A model generated the notes under the pieces. It saw nothing but the letters and a program-made list of their open reading frames with translations, did no database searches and was not told where the DNA came from. A stretch of DNA of 64,000 nt from Serratia silvae (GTDB lineage: Bacteria > Pseudomonadota > Gammaproteobacteria > Enterobacterales > Enterobacteriaceae). This document shows positions 55,593 to 64,000 of the stretch, piece by piece (position 1 is the stretch's first letter; each line of letters starts with the position of its first letter). The translations under genes were made by a program, and so were the position numbers. The stretch spans positions 124,001-188,000 of the forward strand of contig NZ_JAGQDC010000008.1 in assembly GCF_023282985.1 (NCBI RefSeq). The letters run 5' to 3'.

Positions 55593-55668
55593 GCCCGGAT
55601 AGCTCAGTCGGTAGAGCAGGGGATTGAAAATCCCCGTGTCCTTGGTTCGATTCCGAGTCCGGGCACCA
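55593..55668 (+). tRNA. tRNA-Phe (GAA)
   Basis: 76-nt cloverleaf: acceptor GCCCGGA/TCCGGGC, D loop AGCTCAGTCGGTAGAGC, anticodon stem GGGGA/TCCCC with GAA at 55626-55628, T loop GGTTCGATTCC and encoded CCA. Its position near speC corresponds to pheV, a well-known island integration site in E. coli. Confidence 0.97.
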
Positions 55669-55917: not shown

Positions 55918-56901
55918 CTAACGCTTAAACTCCTGCTCCATAATATCCCGCAAGCTCTCCACATCTTCATCAATGTACTCCAGCGTAGAACGCAAACTGG
56001 AATGCCCCAAGAGGCGCTTTACCGCCTGAATATTGCGATCCGGGGATTTCATCATGTTGGTGGCTACCGTATGCCTAAAACGGTGGGGGCTCACAACAAA
56101 CCGGCACTCTCGCGAGAGTCGCCGAAAAAAGGCCCGGATAGGGTAGATACCCATATCTGTCATGGCTCCCTTTTGTTTCACCCTGCGCCCTACATCAAAA
56201 CGATTCACATTGAACAACTGCTCTTCCAGTTCGGCACCGGCCTCCAGTGAGCGGGTCACCAGTATCTCCAAGCGGGGAAACAGTTCACTAATGATGGGAA
56301 TACGCAGCTCGCGATGGTTCTTCGCACCGGCGATAATCAAGTCCAACCAGCGCTCTTCAAGATTCACATCACAGATACGTATGTGACGAAGCTGGTTTTG
56401 ACGTATCGCGGTATAACTGAGGGTATCAAGCACCGTCAACCAGAACCAGGCTGGCTTACAGGCATGAACCCGCCAGTTCACTGCCAGGCTACTGGCCTGC
56501 AACCGCTCACGTTCCTCATACTGCACCATCAAACGGTACACGGCCTCCACCTGCCCCACAGTCAGGGTTTTCTTCTTTTTCCTCCCTGCCCGGACCACCG
56601 CTTTATTAAAGGGATTATCTTGATGCTGCAACAGCCCGCACTTCATCCCGAAATTAAACAGTGCCCTCATGTGCGTCACTTTGTTATTCCAGGTCGTCGC
56701 CTGTAATTGTTGTTCTTTCAGGACGTACCTGCGCCATTCGAGCACCAACCTGTTATCGACCTCATTCGGCGTTTTGGCGGTAAACCGTATAAAGGTCCTC
56801 ACCACCTTTCGATAACTCCACTCGGTGTCATTACGGACAGTATGACTGAAAAAATAATGGTCTAACAACTCATCAAATGTTAATAACCGTTCACAAGTCA
56901 C
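55918..56901 (-). CDS. Tyrosine site-specific recombinase (island integrase)
   Basis: 327 aa from a GTG with GGAG 8 nt upstream; an open TTG 12 codons earlier is less supported. An N-terminal SAM-like core-binding domain (FDELLDHYFFSHTVRND) is followed by the catalytic domain with Arg in SYTAIRQNQLRHIRI, HRFRHTVAT, LLGHSS and the nucleophile Tyr in STLEYIDED. All catalytic positions appear intact. It reads toward tRNA-Phe, 250 nt away. It is XerC/D-like rather than P4-like. It probably integrated the material that follows. Confidence 0.88.
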   Translation of the reverse strand: MTCERLLTFDELLDHYFFSHTVRNDTEWSYRKVVRTFIRFTAKTPNEVDNRLVLEWRRYVLKEQQLQATTWNNKVTHMRALFNFGMKCGLLQHQDNPFNKAVVRAGRKKKKTLTVGQVEAVYRLMVQYEERERLQASSLAVNWRVHACKPAWFWLTVLDTLSYTAIRQNQLRHIRICDVNLEERWLDLIIAGAKNHRELRIPIISELFPRLEILVTRSLEAGAELEEQLFNVNRFDVGRRVKQKGAMTDMGIYPIRAFFRRLSRECRFVVSPHRFRHTVATNMMKSPDRNIQAVKRLLGHSSLRSTLEYIDEDVESLRDIMEQEFKR

Positions 56902-57129
56902 CAGATGTTCTCCAGGATTTATCCATAAAATAATCAAAGAGCTAACTGCCAGAAATGAGAAATCATTTCAGCAATATCCATTTGCCAGACGGATGCTGGC
57001 TGCCTGTTTGGAACATAGACTGCATCGAGCGGTTGAGAAGCAAGACCGTATCCTTCAGAAGAGTACATAGTGTGGGGTATCCTGATAGTTAACAGGCGAT
57101 CCACTCTATGAAGGAAAATTACGGCCACA
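56902..57129. other. Gap upstream of the integrase
   Basis: No gene that I trust. A 93-codon open frame spans 56934-57215 on the minus strand but crosses a terminator hairpin and has no recognisable motif. Confidence 0.4.
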
Positions 57130-57264: not shown

Positions 57265-58009
57265 TTAATTCAGCCTTATTTTCTTAAATGCTTTAATGGT
57301 ATTTTTAATCGCTACTTCTGTCGGTAAACGCTCCATCGAACTGGCACCGTAAAACCCGTGGCAATCAGGACAATGCGACAAAATATAAGCTGCATCCTCC
57401 AGCTCGGCGATGGGCCCACCGTGACACAACACGATAACATCCTCACGCACGGCTTTTGCCGCTGCTGCACAGGCATTGACCACCGGGATACAAGACTCCA
57501 GATTGTGTGCAGTATCTGCACCAATATCGCCCCCAGTCGTCAATCCAAGATGTACCACTATGATATCCGCACCGGCTTCAGTCATCGCTACCGCATCTTC
57601 CGCGCTGAAGACATACGGTGTGGTCAGCATCCCTTTATCGTGCGCCTGGCGGATCATCTCCACTTCCAGGCCATAGCCCATCCCCGTTTCTTCCAGGAAC
57701 AGCGGAATATTGCAAAAGGGGGTCTGTTCCGCAAACACCGGCCAGCACTGGCGTCTCCTTTACCACCGGTAGCACTTCATTACCCATTTCACGCACTATC
57801 TGATTAGCGTTACCGTACGGCATCAACCCCGCCAGCGAGCCGCGCCCAGCCATTCTGAAGCGGCCACTGTTGTAAATCACAATCAAATCGACTCCGCCAG
57901 CTTCTTCACAACGTGCAGACAGACCCGTTCCTGCCCCGGCACCGATAATAGGTTCCTGGCGCAAGACTTTCTGTTGCAGCTTCTCTTTCACGATATTGTA
58001 ATTTTTCAT
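57265..58009 (-). pseudogene. PEP-hydrolase-family TIM-barrel protein, frameshifted and internally deleted
   Basis: Two frames together cover the family. From 58009 the first reads [39 protein letters not shown] and [12 protein letters not shown], then shifts. The second, to 57265, reads [35 protein letters not shown] and [14 protein letters not shown]. The shift coincides with a run of five G (plus strand 57718-57722); removing one restores [16 protein letters not shown]. Even then about 35 residues usual between those points are missing, apparently across repeated FLE(E/Q) coding sequence. It overlaps the preceding gene by 4 nt. The enzyme activity of the family is not well established. Confidence 0.75.
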
Positions 58010-58620
58010 AAAGGATTCCTTGGTGTTGAATCATGAGCGGTTCCCGGGTGTTGCATGACATTCTGGAACTGCGCAATCACAAGCGAGCAAAATTCAGGTG
58101 CGTTGATATGATGGGGCGCTTTTATAATCTGGCGTTGTGCCGTCTGGATGAGCGTTGACTCCAATCCTTCAGCAAAAGCCTGCCTTGCCTGTGGATCAAA
58201 GAACGGTTGCCCTGGTGCATCTAATGCCGAAAATCCGCCCTCTGGAATGATGAAACGTACCGGCCCTTCGCAGAGATTGAGCTTGTTGCCAATCCAAACG
58301 CCGAGCTGGTAGTTTTCCTCTGGTGTTGTGCGCATCAGCGTCACCTGAGCGTTATGCTCTACAAACTGCCGATGAGCATAACGCTCAGGTATGCTGTCCC
58401 GATCGCTGAAATTAACCATATCGAGAGCCCCGGCACTCCCTACCCATGGCGTCTGCAACCACTGCCCTCGCCGGGGTGTAGCCAACAGCTCACAGGCCGA
58501 TACCGGCGCATGATAGCCGTCTGGCACATGGAGTGACAATGACTGCGTCGCGGCAGCTTTTTCGTCGTTAAATGTCTTGACTGACGGAACGGGCAGATAC
58601 TTCAAGAGAGACTTCAGCAT
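58006..58620 (-). pseudogene. Tm-1-like (UPF0261) protein, C-terminal half only
   Basis: 204 codons. From about residue 60 the sequence matches the C-terminal half of Tm-1-like/UPF0261 proteins (normally about 400 aa): GALDMVNFSDRDSIPERYA, VTLMRTTPEENYQLGVW, GPVRFIIPEGGFSALDAPGQPFFDPQ and APHHINAPEF. The first about 60 residues are unlike the family, so the ATP-binding N-terminal half has been replaced or lost. In other bacteria it is paired with the PEP-hydrolase-like gene exactly as here; both partners are damaged. Confidence 0.7.
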
Positions 58621-58901: not shown

Positions 58902-58980
58902 CAACAAACAACTCTAATACGAAAATTTAAAATTAAACTCCATGAAAAACGCCCCAATGTTGCCGGGGCGCTGAATTCAG
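58902..58980. repeat. Imperfect direct repeat, copy 2 (contains a terminator)
   Basis: Partner of 57130-57207, 1.77 kb away, same orientation. It includes the aroG-proximal terminator. Confidence 0.65.
58945..58970 (-). terminator. Terminator downstream of the DAHP synthase operon
   Basis: On the minus strand CGCCCC/GGGGCG arms with a 9-nt loop are followed by TTTTTC. It is the first strong stop after the biosynthetic operon ending at 59275. Confidence 0.75.
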
Positions 58981-59274
58981 CATTATGCCACTGATTTTCT
59001 GTTACTTTCTAAACGTACTGACCAACAATGAAGATAGTAAGCAGGCGTTCGCAGACCCCGGCTATATTTCACCGTTAGCGAGTTACCGGTGATGGTTTCT
59101 GCCGGGATCTACGACAGATATAACTGCTGAAAACGGTCACTGAGCCTTGGCCAGAACGGAGGAGCCCACCCACAATTTGCAACTTGCGGTTATTCCCAGA
59201 AAATACCGAACACAACACTTACCGGAGGTAACCATCATAATGATTTGCCGATCATGCAGATATAACTGGTACGC
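58981..59274. other. Gap between terminator and DAHP synthase
   Basis: 294 nt. A stretch on the minus strand around 58985-59115 stays open in one frame (IPAETITGNSLTVKYSRG and onward) and may be the tail of a lost gene, but no start or family is recognisable. Confidence 0.3.
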
Positions 59275-60312
59275 TTAGAAACGGGTATCGACAGCATCAG
59301 CTAACATGGCAAGCAAGTGCTCACTATCTTCCCAGTTGAGACAAGGGTCCGTGATCGATTGCCCATAGGTCAACGCTTGACCCGAGGCTACTGGTTGTGT
59401 ACCTTCGACAAGAAAACTTTCCGCCATTATACCAGCCACAGTAGCCGATCCTGTGCGAATTTGCCGGCAAACATCTTCGGCGACAACCAATTGATTGCGC
59501 GCTATTTTCTGGCTGTTCCCATGACTAAAATCGACCACCAGATATTCAGGTAAACTGTATGCCCGCAGCTTGTCGTGCGCAGTTGCAATATCTGCCGCAT
59601 GGTAGTTCGGAGTTTTACCACCACGCAAAATGAGATGCCCGTAAGCGTTGCCTCTGGTTAGATAAACCGCCATCTGTTCATGTTTATCCTGAGAGAAAAA
59701 GGTATGGCTGGCACGAGCTGCACGAATTGCATCAATAGCAACGGCGATATTGCCATCGGTGCCATTTTTAAACCCTATTGGACAAGATAGTGCCGACGCC
59801 ATTTCCCGATGTACCTGACTTTCAGTAGTGCGCGCACCAATAGCACCCCAGCTAATTAAATCAGCAATATACCTTCCCACAACCACATCTAAATACTCTG
59901 TAGCAGTTGGCAACCCGAGTTGGTTAATATCCAACAGCAGTTTACGAGCCATTTCAAGGCCGCGGTTGACCTGACAACTTCCATCTAACGCAGGGTCGGA
60001 GATAAACCCTTTCCAGCCAACAACGGTACGTGGTTTTTCGAAATAGGTACGCATGACGATTTCCAACCTATCCTGATAGAGCTCCCGCTGCGCAGCCAGC
60101 AGCCTAGCATAATCCAGCGTAGCCCCCCGATCATGAATCGAACATGGGCCAATGACGACTAGTAAACGTTTATCTTTCCCGTAAAGAATGCGCTCGATCC
60201 GTTTACGCGCTGCAGTGACATTATCGATTACCTCTACAGGGGCTGGTAATCTAGCCGCTAGGCTACTTGGTGTCTCTAAACTGTCAATACACAACTCATC
60301 AATTTTGTACAT
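59275..60312 (-). CDS. DAHP synthase (AroF/G/H type), probably pathway-dedicated
   Basis: 345-aa class I 3-deoxy-7-phosphoheptulonate synthase, first step of the shikimate pathway (PEP plus erythrose-4-phosphate). Motifs: VVIGPCSIHD, IVMRTYFEKPRT, GAIGARTTESQVHRE, CPIGFKNGTDGN and VVDFSHGNS. The loop LDVVVGRY replaces the (T/S)PQY stretch of housekeeping AroG/F/H (from memory), near the feedback-sensing area, so altered inhibition is possible. The ATG at 60312 has AGGGAACATT upstream. Last gene of a four-gene minus-strand operon, 33 nt after the oxidoreductase. The chromosomal aroF/G/H copies should lie elsewhere. Confidence 0.85.
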   Translation of the reverse strand: MYKIDELCIDSLETPSSLAARLPAPVEVIDNVTAARKRIERILYGKDKRLLVVIGPCSIHDRGATLDYARLLAAQRELYQDRLEIVMRTYFEKPRTVVGWKGFISDPALDGSCQVNRGLEMARKLLLDINQLGLPTATEYLDVVVGRYIADLISWGAIGARTTESQVHREMASALSCPIGFKNGTDGNIAVAIDAIRAARASHTFFSQDKHEQMAVYLTRGNAYGHLILRGGKTPNYHAADIATAHDKLRAYSLPEYLVVDFSHGNSQKIARNQLVVAEDVCRQIRTGSATVAGIMAESFLVEGTQPVASGQALTYGQSITDPCLNWEDSEHLLAMLADAVDTRF

Positions 60313-60345
60313 AATGTTCCCTAATGCAAACACTGGTGTACATGT

Positions 60346-61758
60346 TTATACGATAAAGTCCTTAATAAACTTGTAAGAAAGGCTTTTATGAAGAGAGAAT
60401 TTTTTGGCTATGATAAATAATAGGCTAGCCAGCATATCTTTCACTCCCTCTCCGCGCGTTTTAACGCCCATAATATCTTTAGTCACTTTGAATTGAATAT
60501 ACGCCAACATATCATGCTTATAAGGGTAATAAGCACCTAACCGGTCGGCGATTACCATCCCAGAAACTACTGCCCCTTCATGCCCGCCCAAACTGGTATC
60601 TACGCCGCAAAACCACATGTTGTTGCCGCCTTGTATGTCTCCTAAACGGGTCTTATGCAAGAAATCATCGGGCTGCTGCTTAGACACACGCCAACGGCAG
60701 GTTCTTACCAGCTTTAGAGGATCGACGGGCACTTTAGGATCGAGAGTTACCAGCAGCGGTTCGATAATATTCCGGTACGGCGACAGCGCGTTAATCACCC
60801 GAGTGACGCTTCCGGCTGACGTTCCCGGTTGAGTGTCAGCAAACTGCCGGAAATTGAAGTAGTGTGGTACTACGTTCTCACCCAAGTAGCGAGTGTCATG
60901 GTGGGCAATGCTCTCTATATCGTGGTAGGCGAAATGGGAAAGAATTCCCTTTTGCTTTGTCGTCGCGTCATCCAATAGGGATAAGGTCACCTCTGCCGAA
61001 GTAGCGAAAATAACTGCATCGAACACTTCTTCTTTTCCTTTATAGTATACTGCAACACGTTTGCCATAGGGTTTCACCCGCTGCACAGGTGTATTCAGCT
61101 TTAAGCTCTCCCCTAACATGTCTGCCAGAGTTTGCAGGTAGCGACTCATGCCGCCATCCACTTTGCGCCAATAACCGGGCGAAAAAAACGAAACCAGATT
61201 AGCATTGAACGAAATCGCAAAAAACATCAGCGGATAGCTGCACAGATCGACATTGCAACCAGTAGAAATACTGATCATCGGGTAGAGCGCTTGGTAGATA
61301 AACCTTGACGAATAGCCGTTCTCATCCAGATAATCCGAAATCGACATTGTTTTATAACGTTCTTCGCCGGAACTCATAACCTCCGACATGCCCAGTTGAA
61401 AGCGACCAAACTCATCCTGCATGGCTTGGCGTAAAGGGCCATCCAAATGAACATTGCTCCAGTATTGCGCCTCCCCAGGAAAGCGAGCATGGAATGATGA
61501 AGGCGCCACGTAGTTTTCAATGCCTAAATACTTCAGCAAATTAAATACGTTTGGTGAAATCCGCTCGTTAAAATATTCCACCCCCATATCTACGGGGATG
61601 CGACCGTGTTCATTAGTATCAATATGGCAAGTATAAACATGTCCGCCGATATAATCGTTTGCCTCAAGCAACGTAATATGATGTTTATCACGCAATAACC
61701 AAGCCGCTACAGTCCCAGCCGCTCCGCCGCCGATAATGGCGATATTCTTTTTTTTCAT
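60346..61758 (-). CDS. FAD-dependent oxidoreductase, amine-oxidase-like
   Basis: 470-aa flavoprotein with N-terminal dinucleotide fold IAIIGGGAAGTVAAW (residues 6-20) and ITLLEANDYIGGHVYT, then the amine-oxidase-type substrate domain and a C-terminal FAD motif MWFCGVDTSLGGHEGAVVSG near 390. It belongs to the group of predicted NAD/FAD-binding proteins (COG2907-like). Its start overlaps the stop of the YhbP-like gene by 4 nt. In this operon it may oxidise an amine or carbon-carbon bond of the carrier-bound intermediate; that is inference. Confidence 0.8.
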   Translation of the reverse strand: MKKKNIAIIGGGAAGTVAAWLLRDKHHITLLEANDYIGGHVYTCHIDTNEHGRIPVDMGVEYFNERISPNVFNLLKYLGIENYVAPSSFHARFPGEAQYWSNVHLDGPLRQAMQDEFGRFQLGMSEVMSSGEERYKTMSISDYLDENGYSSRFIYQALYPMISISTGCNVDLCSYPLMFFAISFNANLVSFFSPGYWRKVDGGMSRYLQTLADMLGESLKLNTPVQRVKPYGKRVAVYYKGKEEVFDAVIFATSAEVTLSLLDDATTKQKGILSHFAYHDIESIAHHDTRYLGENVVPHYFNFRQFADTQPGTSAGSVTRVINALSPYRNIIEPLLVTLDPKVPVDPLKLVRTCRWRVSKQQPDDFLHKTRLGDIQGGNNMWFCGVDTSLGGHEGAVVSGMVIADRLGAYYPYKHDMLAYIQFKVTKDIMGVKTRGEGVKDMLASLLFIIAKKFSLHKSLSYKFIKDFIV

Positions 61759-62213
61759 TGAGAGAATACCTCAAGTCTCTGTGTACACATCCAATGCAGG
61801 CACCGCTTCACGCCCATACGTCTTTGTGTTAGCTTTACTTCTCTCAATTGCAACCTCCATATTTTAAAAGCCATAACGCGACTAATTGGATAGCGTTCGT
61901 AATAGAAGTTCCGTGCCTGTTCTTCATGTTCATCAGACAAAGGCGTAATGTGGGCTTGATATTGTACTCCCTTCATAGACATCATGGAACTCGCTGATGA
62001 AATAATAGTTCCAGAAACCATCGGTGCCTTTAACATTAACTGGGAGTGGCGTGAATTGATATCACTCATCAGATATAACGCCATCTGGTCTTTCTGAAAT
62101 TGATAAAAACAAGTTGCCGACCAGACTACACCCTCAGCAGCGACACTTAACGTTAATACTCGTTCCTGATTAATGAAGTGACATATTTCACGCAACTGTT
62201 TTTCGTTATTCAT
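61755..62213 (-). CDS. YhbP-like pyridoxamine-phosphate-oxidase-fold protein
   Basis: 152-aa split-barrel protein related to UPF0306 YhbP. It carries VLTLSVAAEGVVWSATCFYQ, LYLMSDINSRHSQLM, SGTIIS and KGVQYQAHITPL. The ATG has a strong AAGGAGGGGTG ribosome site; a GTG one codon earlier is possible. Such proteins bind FMN or act in flavin-linked reactions. It lies 62 nt after the NRPS gene and is coupled to the oxidoreductase, so it is probably a partner enzyme or flavin supplier. Confidence 0.75.
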   Translation of the reverse strand: MNNEKQLREICHFINQERVLTLSVAAEGVVWSATCFYQFQKDQMALYLMSDINSRHSQLMLKAPMVSGTIISSASSMMSMKGVQYQAHITPLSDEHEEQARNFYYERYPISRVMAFKIWRLQLREVKLTQRRMGVKRCLHWMCTQRLEVFSQ

Positions 62214-62275
62214 CACCCCTCCTTAGCATAATATTTGGATAGTGCTCTGGACGCATTGATATTAATTTTCCGCTA

Positions 62276-64000
62276 TTAGGTATGTTGCAATATTTGCTTC
62301 GCAATCGCATTGGGGTTTTCGCCACTTATAATCAACGATACCGGGATCTTTCTCTTCAACTTAGCACTGATGATGCCTGAAGAAATTAAGGCTAGTGCCG
62401 AGTTGCCGCCACGATCGAAAAAGCTCGATGTCTCATCAAACTCTTTGCAGCCTAACGCTGTGGCGAACACCTGGCAAATCGTCGCTGCAATAGCTTGAAG
62501 CTGAACATTACCCTGAGCGGATGTAGCGCTATCAGTATGATGGTGCAACGTGTTATTCCAGCTCGGGTCTGGCAAGGATTTTTTGTCAAACTTACCATTT
62601 GGCTGTAGAGAAAATTCAGGTAACACGACAAACAGATCCGGCACCATATAATCTGGCAACCTTTTACCCAACATATTTTCCAACGACGCTTTAGTCAACG
62701 GAGCCTGGCTAACGATGTATGCGGTAAGCATATCGTCCCCACGCCCTTCAAACCGCCTAGCCAGCACCACCGCACCAGCGATACCTGGGATATTTTCCAA
62801 CTCCGTTTCTATTTCGCTCACGCCAATACGATTGCCACGGATTTTAATCTCTCCGTTCCCGCGTCCTAGCCATTCAATTCTTCCCTGTTCGCGCAAGCGG
62901 ACGCGATCGCCTGAGCGATAAAGCTTCATGCCCGTTTTCGGATGAGTGATGAATACTTGTTCCGTTCCTTCGCGGTTGCCGTGATAACCTTGCGCCAAAC
63001 CATGCCCAGAAATGTAGAGTTCGCCATGCTCGCAAGGCTCAAGCGCCTCATTAAGCACATGCAATTGAGTATTCGCCAAAGGCTCGCCAATAGAAATGTA
63101 ATCCGCATCCCGCTCAACGCATTCGCACGAAGTCCATATCGTCGCCTCGGTCGGGCCATACAGATTCCATAACCGCCCACATGTCTGATTCAATTTTTTC
63201 GCCAGCCCTATCGGTAGCTCCTCTCCACCGGATAACAGCGTCACTGACGAATCAGGCCGCCAGTCTGTCGCCCACAAAATTTTCCATAAGCTGGGGGTAG
63301 CTTGAACAAAATGGCTTTTCTCGATCAGCGGGAGAATGCCTTCAATTGTGCTCACGTCGTCGTTACTCGCCAGCAAAACAGTCCCTCCAACGCTAAGCGG
63401 CAACAGCAACTCGAGAATGGAGATATCAAAAGCCACAGTCGTATGTGCCAGAAATACATGGGACGACTGAACCTCCAGCCGATCTGCAATAGCGATTAAG
63501 AAATTGTGCAATGCCTGATGGCTAATACTGACGCCCTTGGGTTGCCCAGTCGAGCCGCTGGTAAACAGAATATAAGCAACTTCATCGCACTGTCTTGCCA
63601 CACAAACCATCTTCCCTATCGTGGTAAGCGAGGGATAAATGACGTTATTATTCAATTTTTCCGCTAGAACACTTTCTTCAGGATGAGCGAGCAGCATTTT
63701 CGGTTTGGCTACATCAACGTAGCGCTCCAATCTGGACAGCGGATAAGCGGGATCAAGAGGGACAAACGTCGCCCCAAGAGCCAAGGTAGCGATCATTGCC
63801 GGAATCAGCCACCGATCGCGATGCAATAGTAGGCCAACGACATCATTACGCTCCACACCAGCTCGCGTTAGCTGTTGTTGTACGGCGACAACATGTCGTT
63901 CGAACTCTGCATAATCCATACGGATTTCGCCGTTGATTTGTGCTGTTTTCTCTGGATACTGAATAATCGATTGAAGAATCAACTCGGCCGCATTGCCGGT
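62276..64000 (-). CDS. NRPS adenylation-carrier protein, 5' end outside the window
   Basis: At least 574 codons, open to the window edge; a TTG at 63982 is not a convincing start. Adenylation motifs: A3 LFTSGSTGQPKGVS, A4 AFDISILELL, A5 NLYGPTEATIW, A7 YRSGDRVR, A8 GEIKIRGNRIGVSEIE, A10 PNGKFDKKSLPD. A peptidyl carrier domain follows with its phosphopantetheine serine in DRGGNSALAL, and the protein then ends. Reading the specificity positions by eye against GrsA gives D-I-L-Q-L-G-L-I-W-K, which I recall as a glycine code. There is no condensation or thioesterase domain in the visible part. It is upstream in the operon with the flavoenzymes and DAHP synthase. Confidence 0.85.
   Translation of the reverse strand, partial: TGNAAELILQSIIQYPEKTAQINGEIRMDYAEFERHVVAVQQQLTRAGVERNDVVGLLLHRDRWLIPAMIATLALGATFVPLDPAYPLSRLERYVDVAKPKMLLAHPEESVLAEKLNNNVIYPSLTTIGKMVCVARQCDEVAYILFTSGSTGQPKGVSISHQALHNFLIAIADRLEVQSSHVFLAHTTVAFDISILELLLPLSVGGTVLLASNDDVSTIEGILPLIEKSHFVQATPSLWKILWATDWRPDSSVTLLSGGEELPIGLAKKLNQTCGRLWNLYGPTEATIWTSCECVERDADYISIGEPLANTQLHVLNEALEPCEHGELYISGHGLAQGYHGNREGTEQVFITHPKTGMKLYRSGDRVRLREQGRIEWLGRGNGEIKIRGNRIGVSEIETELENIPGIAGAVVLARRFEGRGDDMLTAYIVSQAPLTKASLENMLGKRLPDYMVPDLFVVLPEFSLQPNGKFDKKSLPDPSWNNTLHHHTDSATSAQGNVQLQAIAATICQVFATALGCKEFDETSSFFDRGGNSALALISSGIISAKLKRKIPVSLIISGENPNAIAKQILQHT

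Follow-up and report, generated by a model that had tools for sequence, protein, structure and literature searches.

Phenazine clusters of a type found in gut E. coli, Proteus and Providencia (PMC11278526) are the closest described relatives of the locus analysed here. The best described example lies on ICEPm2 of Proteus mirabilis BL95, where the same genes stand in the same order; the cluster was classed as type 2 of six under a cited classification, and E. coli, Providencia stuartii and Serratia fonticola were named as carriers (PMC11278526). Insertion of an integrative and conjugative element in tRNA-Phe has been described for this cluster type (PMC11278526), and cluster genes served as markers in a study of colorectal-tumour E. 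coli (PMC12366417). The accessible literature reports no product for the type.

Two other systems bear on its tailoring genes. One is the D-alanylgriseoluteic acid (ehp) operon of Pantoea/Enterobacter agglomerans Eh1087, which we compared through the Pantoea plasmid pASB05p2. The other is the lankacidin pathway, in which the oxidase LkcE converts an amide to an iminium before the macrocycle is closed by a Mannich reaction (PMC6162330). In 2018 LkcE was described as only the second known amide oxidase; its activity is abolished by E64 substitutions and by R326L, though not by R326Q or Y182F, and Y182 is reported to be strictly conserved in LkcE cyclases (PMC6162330).

Four tandem minus-strand genes occupy the end of the window (the whole 64,000-nucleotide stretch of Serratia silvae DNA that was analysed), and both ORF positions and Pfam/NCBIfam profile models confirm their placement in the earlier note. 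They encode an AroH-type DAHP synthase that is the phzC equivalent and last gene of the operon (59275..60333), an LkcE-type FAD-dependent oxidase with a match to an amine oxidase family model (60346..61758), a small YhbP-like protein of the PNPOx family (61755..62216; 4-bp overlap with the oxidase gene) and a 595-aa A-PCP protein (62276..64000 and beyond the window). The true start of the last lies at about 64045-64063 in projected coordinates, some 45-63 bases outside the window, which places about 20 N-terminal residues beyond it. The A-PCP protein scores 330 bits against the amino-acid adenylation model TIGR01733, above cut-off, and has a PP-binding domain with the PCP serine within GGNSA. 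The YhbP-like protein reaches 148 bits against its family model, below the 176-bit equivalog cut-off; its E. coli DEF10 orthologue is a "PNPOx family protein" in RefSeq, and a second, separate YhbP-like gene on contig C14 of the same genome encodes a 39% identical protein. The arrangement of all four genes recurs in Serratia and E. coli, and that of the three other than the DAHP synthase gene in Pectobacterium; across these genera the proteins are 61-97% identical, and such conservation marks the ORFs as genuine genes rather than chance reading frames.

The DAHP synthase scores 503 bits against TIGR00034 (aroFGH) and 587 bits against NF009396 (AroH), and is 77-97% identical to counterparts at the same site in E. 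coli and Serratia phenazine operons; the host also has an AroH-like paralogue, which is 74% identical to it. The Val and Gly positions that we take to be the tryptophan feedback sites of AroH look retained. In the enzyme of the E. coli plasmid operon (L006:17130-18176), Trp occupies this Gly position of the chromosomal AroH-like enzyme.

The contig continues 11 kb past the window edge, and this continuation is covered by locus L005 (window position = L005 position + 56999). The phenazine genes identified there lie on the same strand as the four genes. The first is an EhpR-like VOC protein (L005 16284-16700), followed by an EhpK-like SDR (L005 15379-16200), PhzA/B (L005 14874-15332; PHZA_PHZB model, 248 bits), PhzD (L005 14163-14828; isochorismatase model, 134 bits) and PhzE (L005 12298-14205; chorismate-binding and GATase domains). 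After a 117-aa ORF related to NosA (L005 11948-12301) come PhzF (L005 11124-11999; PhzF model, 201 bits), PhzG (within L005 10475-11284), EhpF (L005 9401-10462), an EhpG-like aldehyde dehydrogenase (L005 8020-9399) and a 310-aa FabD-like acyltransferase (L005 7091-8023). PhzG scores 229 bits, under the 270-bit equivalog cut-off, yet this is the best model for that protein. EhpF matches the solved EhpF structure at 360 bits (E 9e-107), with no other PDB family at E 0.001. The EhpR assignment is weaker, since its match (E 8e-12) ranks third behind two other proteins.

Homologues of PhzA/B, PhzD, PhzE, PhzF and PhzG are thus encoded together, and these core genes directly precede the four genes with overlaps or short spacing. 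On gene content and layout, the four genes are almost certainly the last ones, distal to the promoter, of a phenazine biosynthesis operon. The earlier note was right to group them as one operon and to suggest that the DAHP synthase feeds an aromatic partner. It had, however, left the pathway unassigned and called the gene set undescribed. It had also proposed extending the sequence beyond position 64000 and had named upstream genes of a known pathway as the outcome that would overturn its reading; the family models and the EhpF match define exactly such a pathway, phenazine biosynthesis, and the identical gene order has been published (PMC11278526).

Comparison with P. mirabilis BL95 places the operon in the type 2 Enterobacterales group by gene set and order, and the order also agrees with three E. 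coli loci (L006, L010, L011). Shared with BL95 are the order from ehpR to the aroH-type phzC, a neighbouring DUF2461 gene, and the association with tRNA-Phe and an integrative element. The two differ in that a 4'-phosphopantetheinyl transferase gene, which follows phzC in BL95, is not seen here, and in the apparently degraded state of the element here. The transferase gene is likewise reported absent after phzC in S. fonticola and in the E. coli plasmid (PMC11278526), and we find five other PPTase-family genes in the genome studied here. The operon adds one more member to a phenazine type that is already catalogued, and the new point is its pairing of an LkcE-type oxidase with a glycine-coded adenylation domain.

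The oxidase is 47.6% identical to LkcE (PDB 6F32) over 429 aa (440 bits, E 1e-130), and LkcE is its sole strong structural relative, other MAO-family structures scoring about 40 bits or less. In a tree, the phenazine-cluster oxidases group with LkcE with support of 100/100. With LkcE residues numbered at a crystal chain offset of 4, set by matching E64-H65 and R326, the catalytically important E64 and R326 are kept as E61 and R320 here and as the same residues in three relatives, and 11 generic paralogues from the order carry Ile and Tyr at these positions. The equivalent of Y182 is Phe in all four phenazine-cluster oxidases, and the LkcE pocket residues H65, Y168 and T397 differ in the phenazine-cluster enzyme.

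The adenylation domain provides the second half of the pairing. Alignment to GrsA 1AMU (the GrsA fragment verified against the PDB) gives the pocket DILQLGLIW plus Lys at A10, the same code that the earlier note had read by hand as specific for glycine, and all five homologues compared have DILQLG(L/M)IW. The literature ties DILQLGMIWK to glycine in a survey (PMC12283262), and DILQLGVI in the nocamycin pathway is predicted to specify glycine (PMC5466765). LkcA, whose A domain partners LkcE in a lankacidin-type Streptomyces cluster, has DILQLGMIW, which is one Leu/Met change away. On this code, the A-PCP protein very probably loads glycine.

The operon shares with the lankacidin system, in which the nitrogen source is glycine, the FAD motif, E64 and R326 of LkcE and a glycine-coded A domain as the partner of the oxidase. 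The two systems differ in that the partner is a polyketide there and would be an aromatic phenazine here, and in that this operon encodes neither a PKS nor a condensation domain. Recent transfer of a tailoring block from a lankacidin cluster is ruled out: the A-PCP protein is only 33% identical to LkcA, which argues that the pairing was not copied as such a block, and the 310-aa acyltransferase has no blastp match to LkcD at E 1e-3. A glycine-coded A domain thus occurs with an LkcE-type oxidase in two otherwise unrelated pathways. In the article texts searched we found no link between LkcE and this phenazine cluster, and one of the two non-lankacidin LkcE relatives in the LkcE study (PMC6162330) may come from such a cluster. 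As a separate observation, a 1.5-Mb gammaproteobacterial genome contains a partial LkcE-like gene (L035, G777:C31; 49% identity over 227 aa) directly after a FabD-like acyltransferase and an apparent PKS end, possibly a lankacidin-type cluster in a very small genome.

These features can be assembled into a pathway in which glycine is loaded, joined to a phenazine and oxidized at its N-C bond, and as a whole we consider this account probable. The DAHP synthase would raise chorismate supply, and PhzE, PhzD, PhzF, PhzA/B and PhzG would make phenazine-1,6-dicarboxylic acid, as in established phenazine biochemistry. EhpF would activate one carboxyl and EhpG reduce toward the aldehyde or alcohol, as proposed for their homologues. 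The A-PCP protein would load glycine, and the glycyl group would be joined to the phenazine without a condensation domain, perhaps through the FabD-like acyltransferase. The LkcE-type oxidase would then oxidize the glycine at its N-C bond, giving an imine or iminium that a nucleophile traps as in lankacidin, and the EhpR-like protein, by analogy with EhpR, may bind the product in self-protection. The absence of a condensation domain from the operon, the Phe at the Y182 position and the changed pocket residues H65, Y168 and T397 count against this account.

The individual parts differ in strength. Action of the oxidase at the N-C bond of glycine is a tentative proposal, for which we see slightly less than an even chance; it agrees with the suggestion of the earlier note that carrier-bound glycine may be oxidized, a guess that looks well placed given an LkcE-like enzyme with both key LkcE residues. 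For the acyltransferase, the FabD-type Ser, His and Arg are intact and kept in all relatives (its predicted structure has a pLDDT of 40), and the conserved Arg suggests a substrate with a free carboxylate; speculatively, a half-activated phenazine dicarboxylate would carry one. In its most specific form the proposal has the operon make a new phenazine: carrier-bound glycine would be coupled to the phenazine, the LkcE-type amide oxidase would act on it, and a carbon nucleophile would trap the N-acyl iminium. We regard this outcome as possible, if on the doubtful side; if true, it would be a second natural pathway, beyond lankacidin-type polyketides, to employ flavin-dependent oxidation of an amide and perhaps a Mannich reaction under enzymatic control. 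The oxidase and the glycine-coded A domain in any case yield a concrete, testable prediction of unreported tailoring chemistry, and because LkcE was described in 2018 as only the second enzyme of its kind, a relative in a small, tractable operon would be useful.

An unlikely alternative is a pathway like that to D-alanylgriseoluteic acid (AGA), in which the A-PCP protein would attach glycine, and not D-alanine, to a hydroxymethyl-phenazine as an ester; the oxidase would then have another target, such as the phenazine ring or a side chain. AGA is a precedent for phenazines that carry an aminoacyl group (PMC3175449), and the Pantoea AGA-type cluster shares with this operon the core phz genes and homologues of EhpF (44% identity), EhpG (38%), the EhpK-like SDR (35%) and EhpR (29%). 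Against this, the Pantoea operon has its own separate A domain, ACP and KSIII-like genes, a methyltransferase and an MFS exporter; no O-methyltransferase, MFS exporter, separate ACP or KSIII-like gene is among the operon genes here, and the pASB05p2 cluster in turn yielded no gene for an LkcE-like oxidase, a YhbP-like protein or a FabD-like acyltransferase. The code of the Pantoea EhpM A domain, DFWSVCTVF, is not a glycine code, which means a different amino acid or at least a different pocket. The lack of the Pantoea tailoring genes here and the different code rule out an AGA cluster proper, and a simple ester would need no amide oxidase of the LkcE type.

A further alternative, in keeping with the NosA-related ORF, is that a phenazine-carbonyl-glycine is oxidized at the glycine alpha-carbon and that hydrolysis of the N-acyl imine, as in peptide amidation, releases glyoxylate and leaves a phenazine carboxamide. 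NosA forms the terminal amide in nosiheptide. The 117-aa ORF, which lies between phzE and phzF, matches the NosA profile at E 6e-8, and its predicted fold, a model of moderate confidence (pLDDT 65), has NosA as best match (E 9e-6) at about 26% identity. Oxidation of an amide to an iminium by LkcE (PMC6162330) would also suit this scheme. However, the ORF stands in the core part of the operon, and its relatives adjoin genes of the phzE or phzF type in several unrelated plasmids, from Burkholderia, Rhizobium and Rhodococcus; a link of the ORF to the glycine step is therefore improbable. Homologues were noted earlier to recur in phenazine systems (PMC11278526). EhpF and EhpG moreover point to carboxyl reduction and not to amidation, and we consider the carboxamide route quite improbable. 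We give next to no credence to the non-phenazine pathway first proposed, which fitted four genes standing alone in the window without a visible phenazine core and which we reject because core phz genes lie directly upstream and the whole set is kept together in Serratia, E. coli and Pectobacterium.

The glycine-loading phenazine operon that we favour sits in a mobile setting. A tRNA-Phe (55593..55668, plus strand; ARAGORN) adjoins the island, with a tyrosine integrase beside it (55918..56937, minus strand; Phage_integrase PF00589, E 4e-13). A minus-strand ORF at 58006..58620 is a chimeric remnant: it begins with a TraI-like stretch (residues 1-59, 90% identical to a cluster-adjacent protein in G004, a genome of the same genus; named by comparison with the annotated E. 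coli DEF10 element) and ends in a UPF0261 C-terminal fragment (UPF0261_C, 156 bits from residue 56), and it probably marks the site of a deletion in the integrative element. The two ORFs that follow it downstream (57265-58009) are pieces of a broken PEP-hydrolase-like gene. A 101-bp direct repeat brackets the operon, with one copy downstream (58942..59042) and an 86% identical copy beyond the window (L005 17883-17983); a 95% identical copy of the downstream repeat lies at the same place in G004 (L027 4362-4458). The presence of the tRNA-Phe, the integrase and the TraI remnant agrees with the published tRNA-Phe element and suggests that most of the element has been lost here.

All 15 proteins are found in order in an E. 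coli plasmid, the E. coli ECOR29 plasmid, the E. coli DEF10 chromosome, Serratia microhaemolytica and G004, where the operon proteins are 79-98% identical, and 14 of the 15 match in order in Pectobacterium betavasculorum. The tailoring end occurs in 11 of 5,426 complete E. coli genomes, and EhpF in two of 395 sampled genomes of the order, the genome studied here included. In the mouse E. coli DEF10, PhzE (L011:8862-10714) is annotated as two CDSs, which suggests an interrupted phzE gene.
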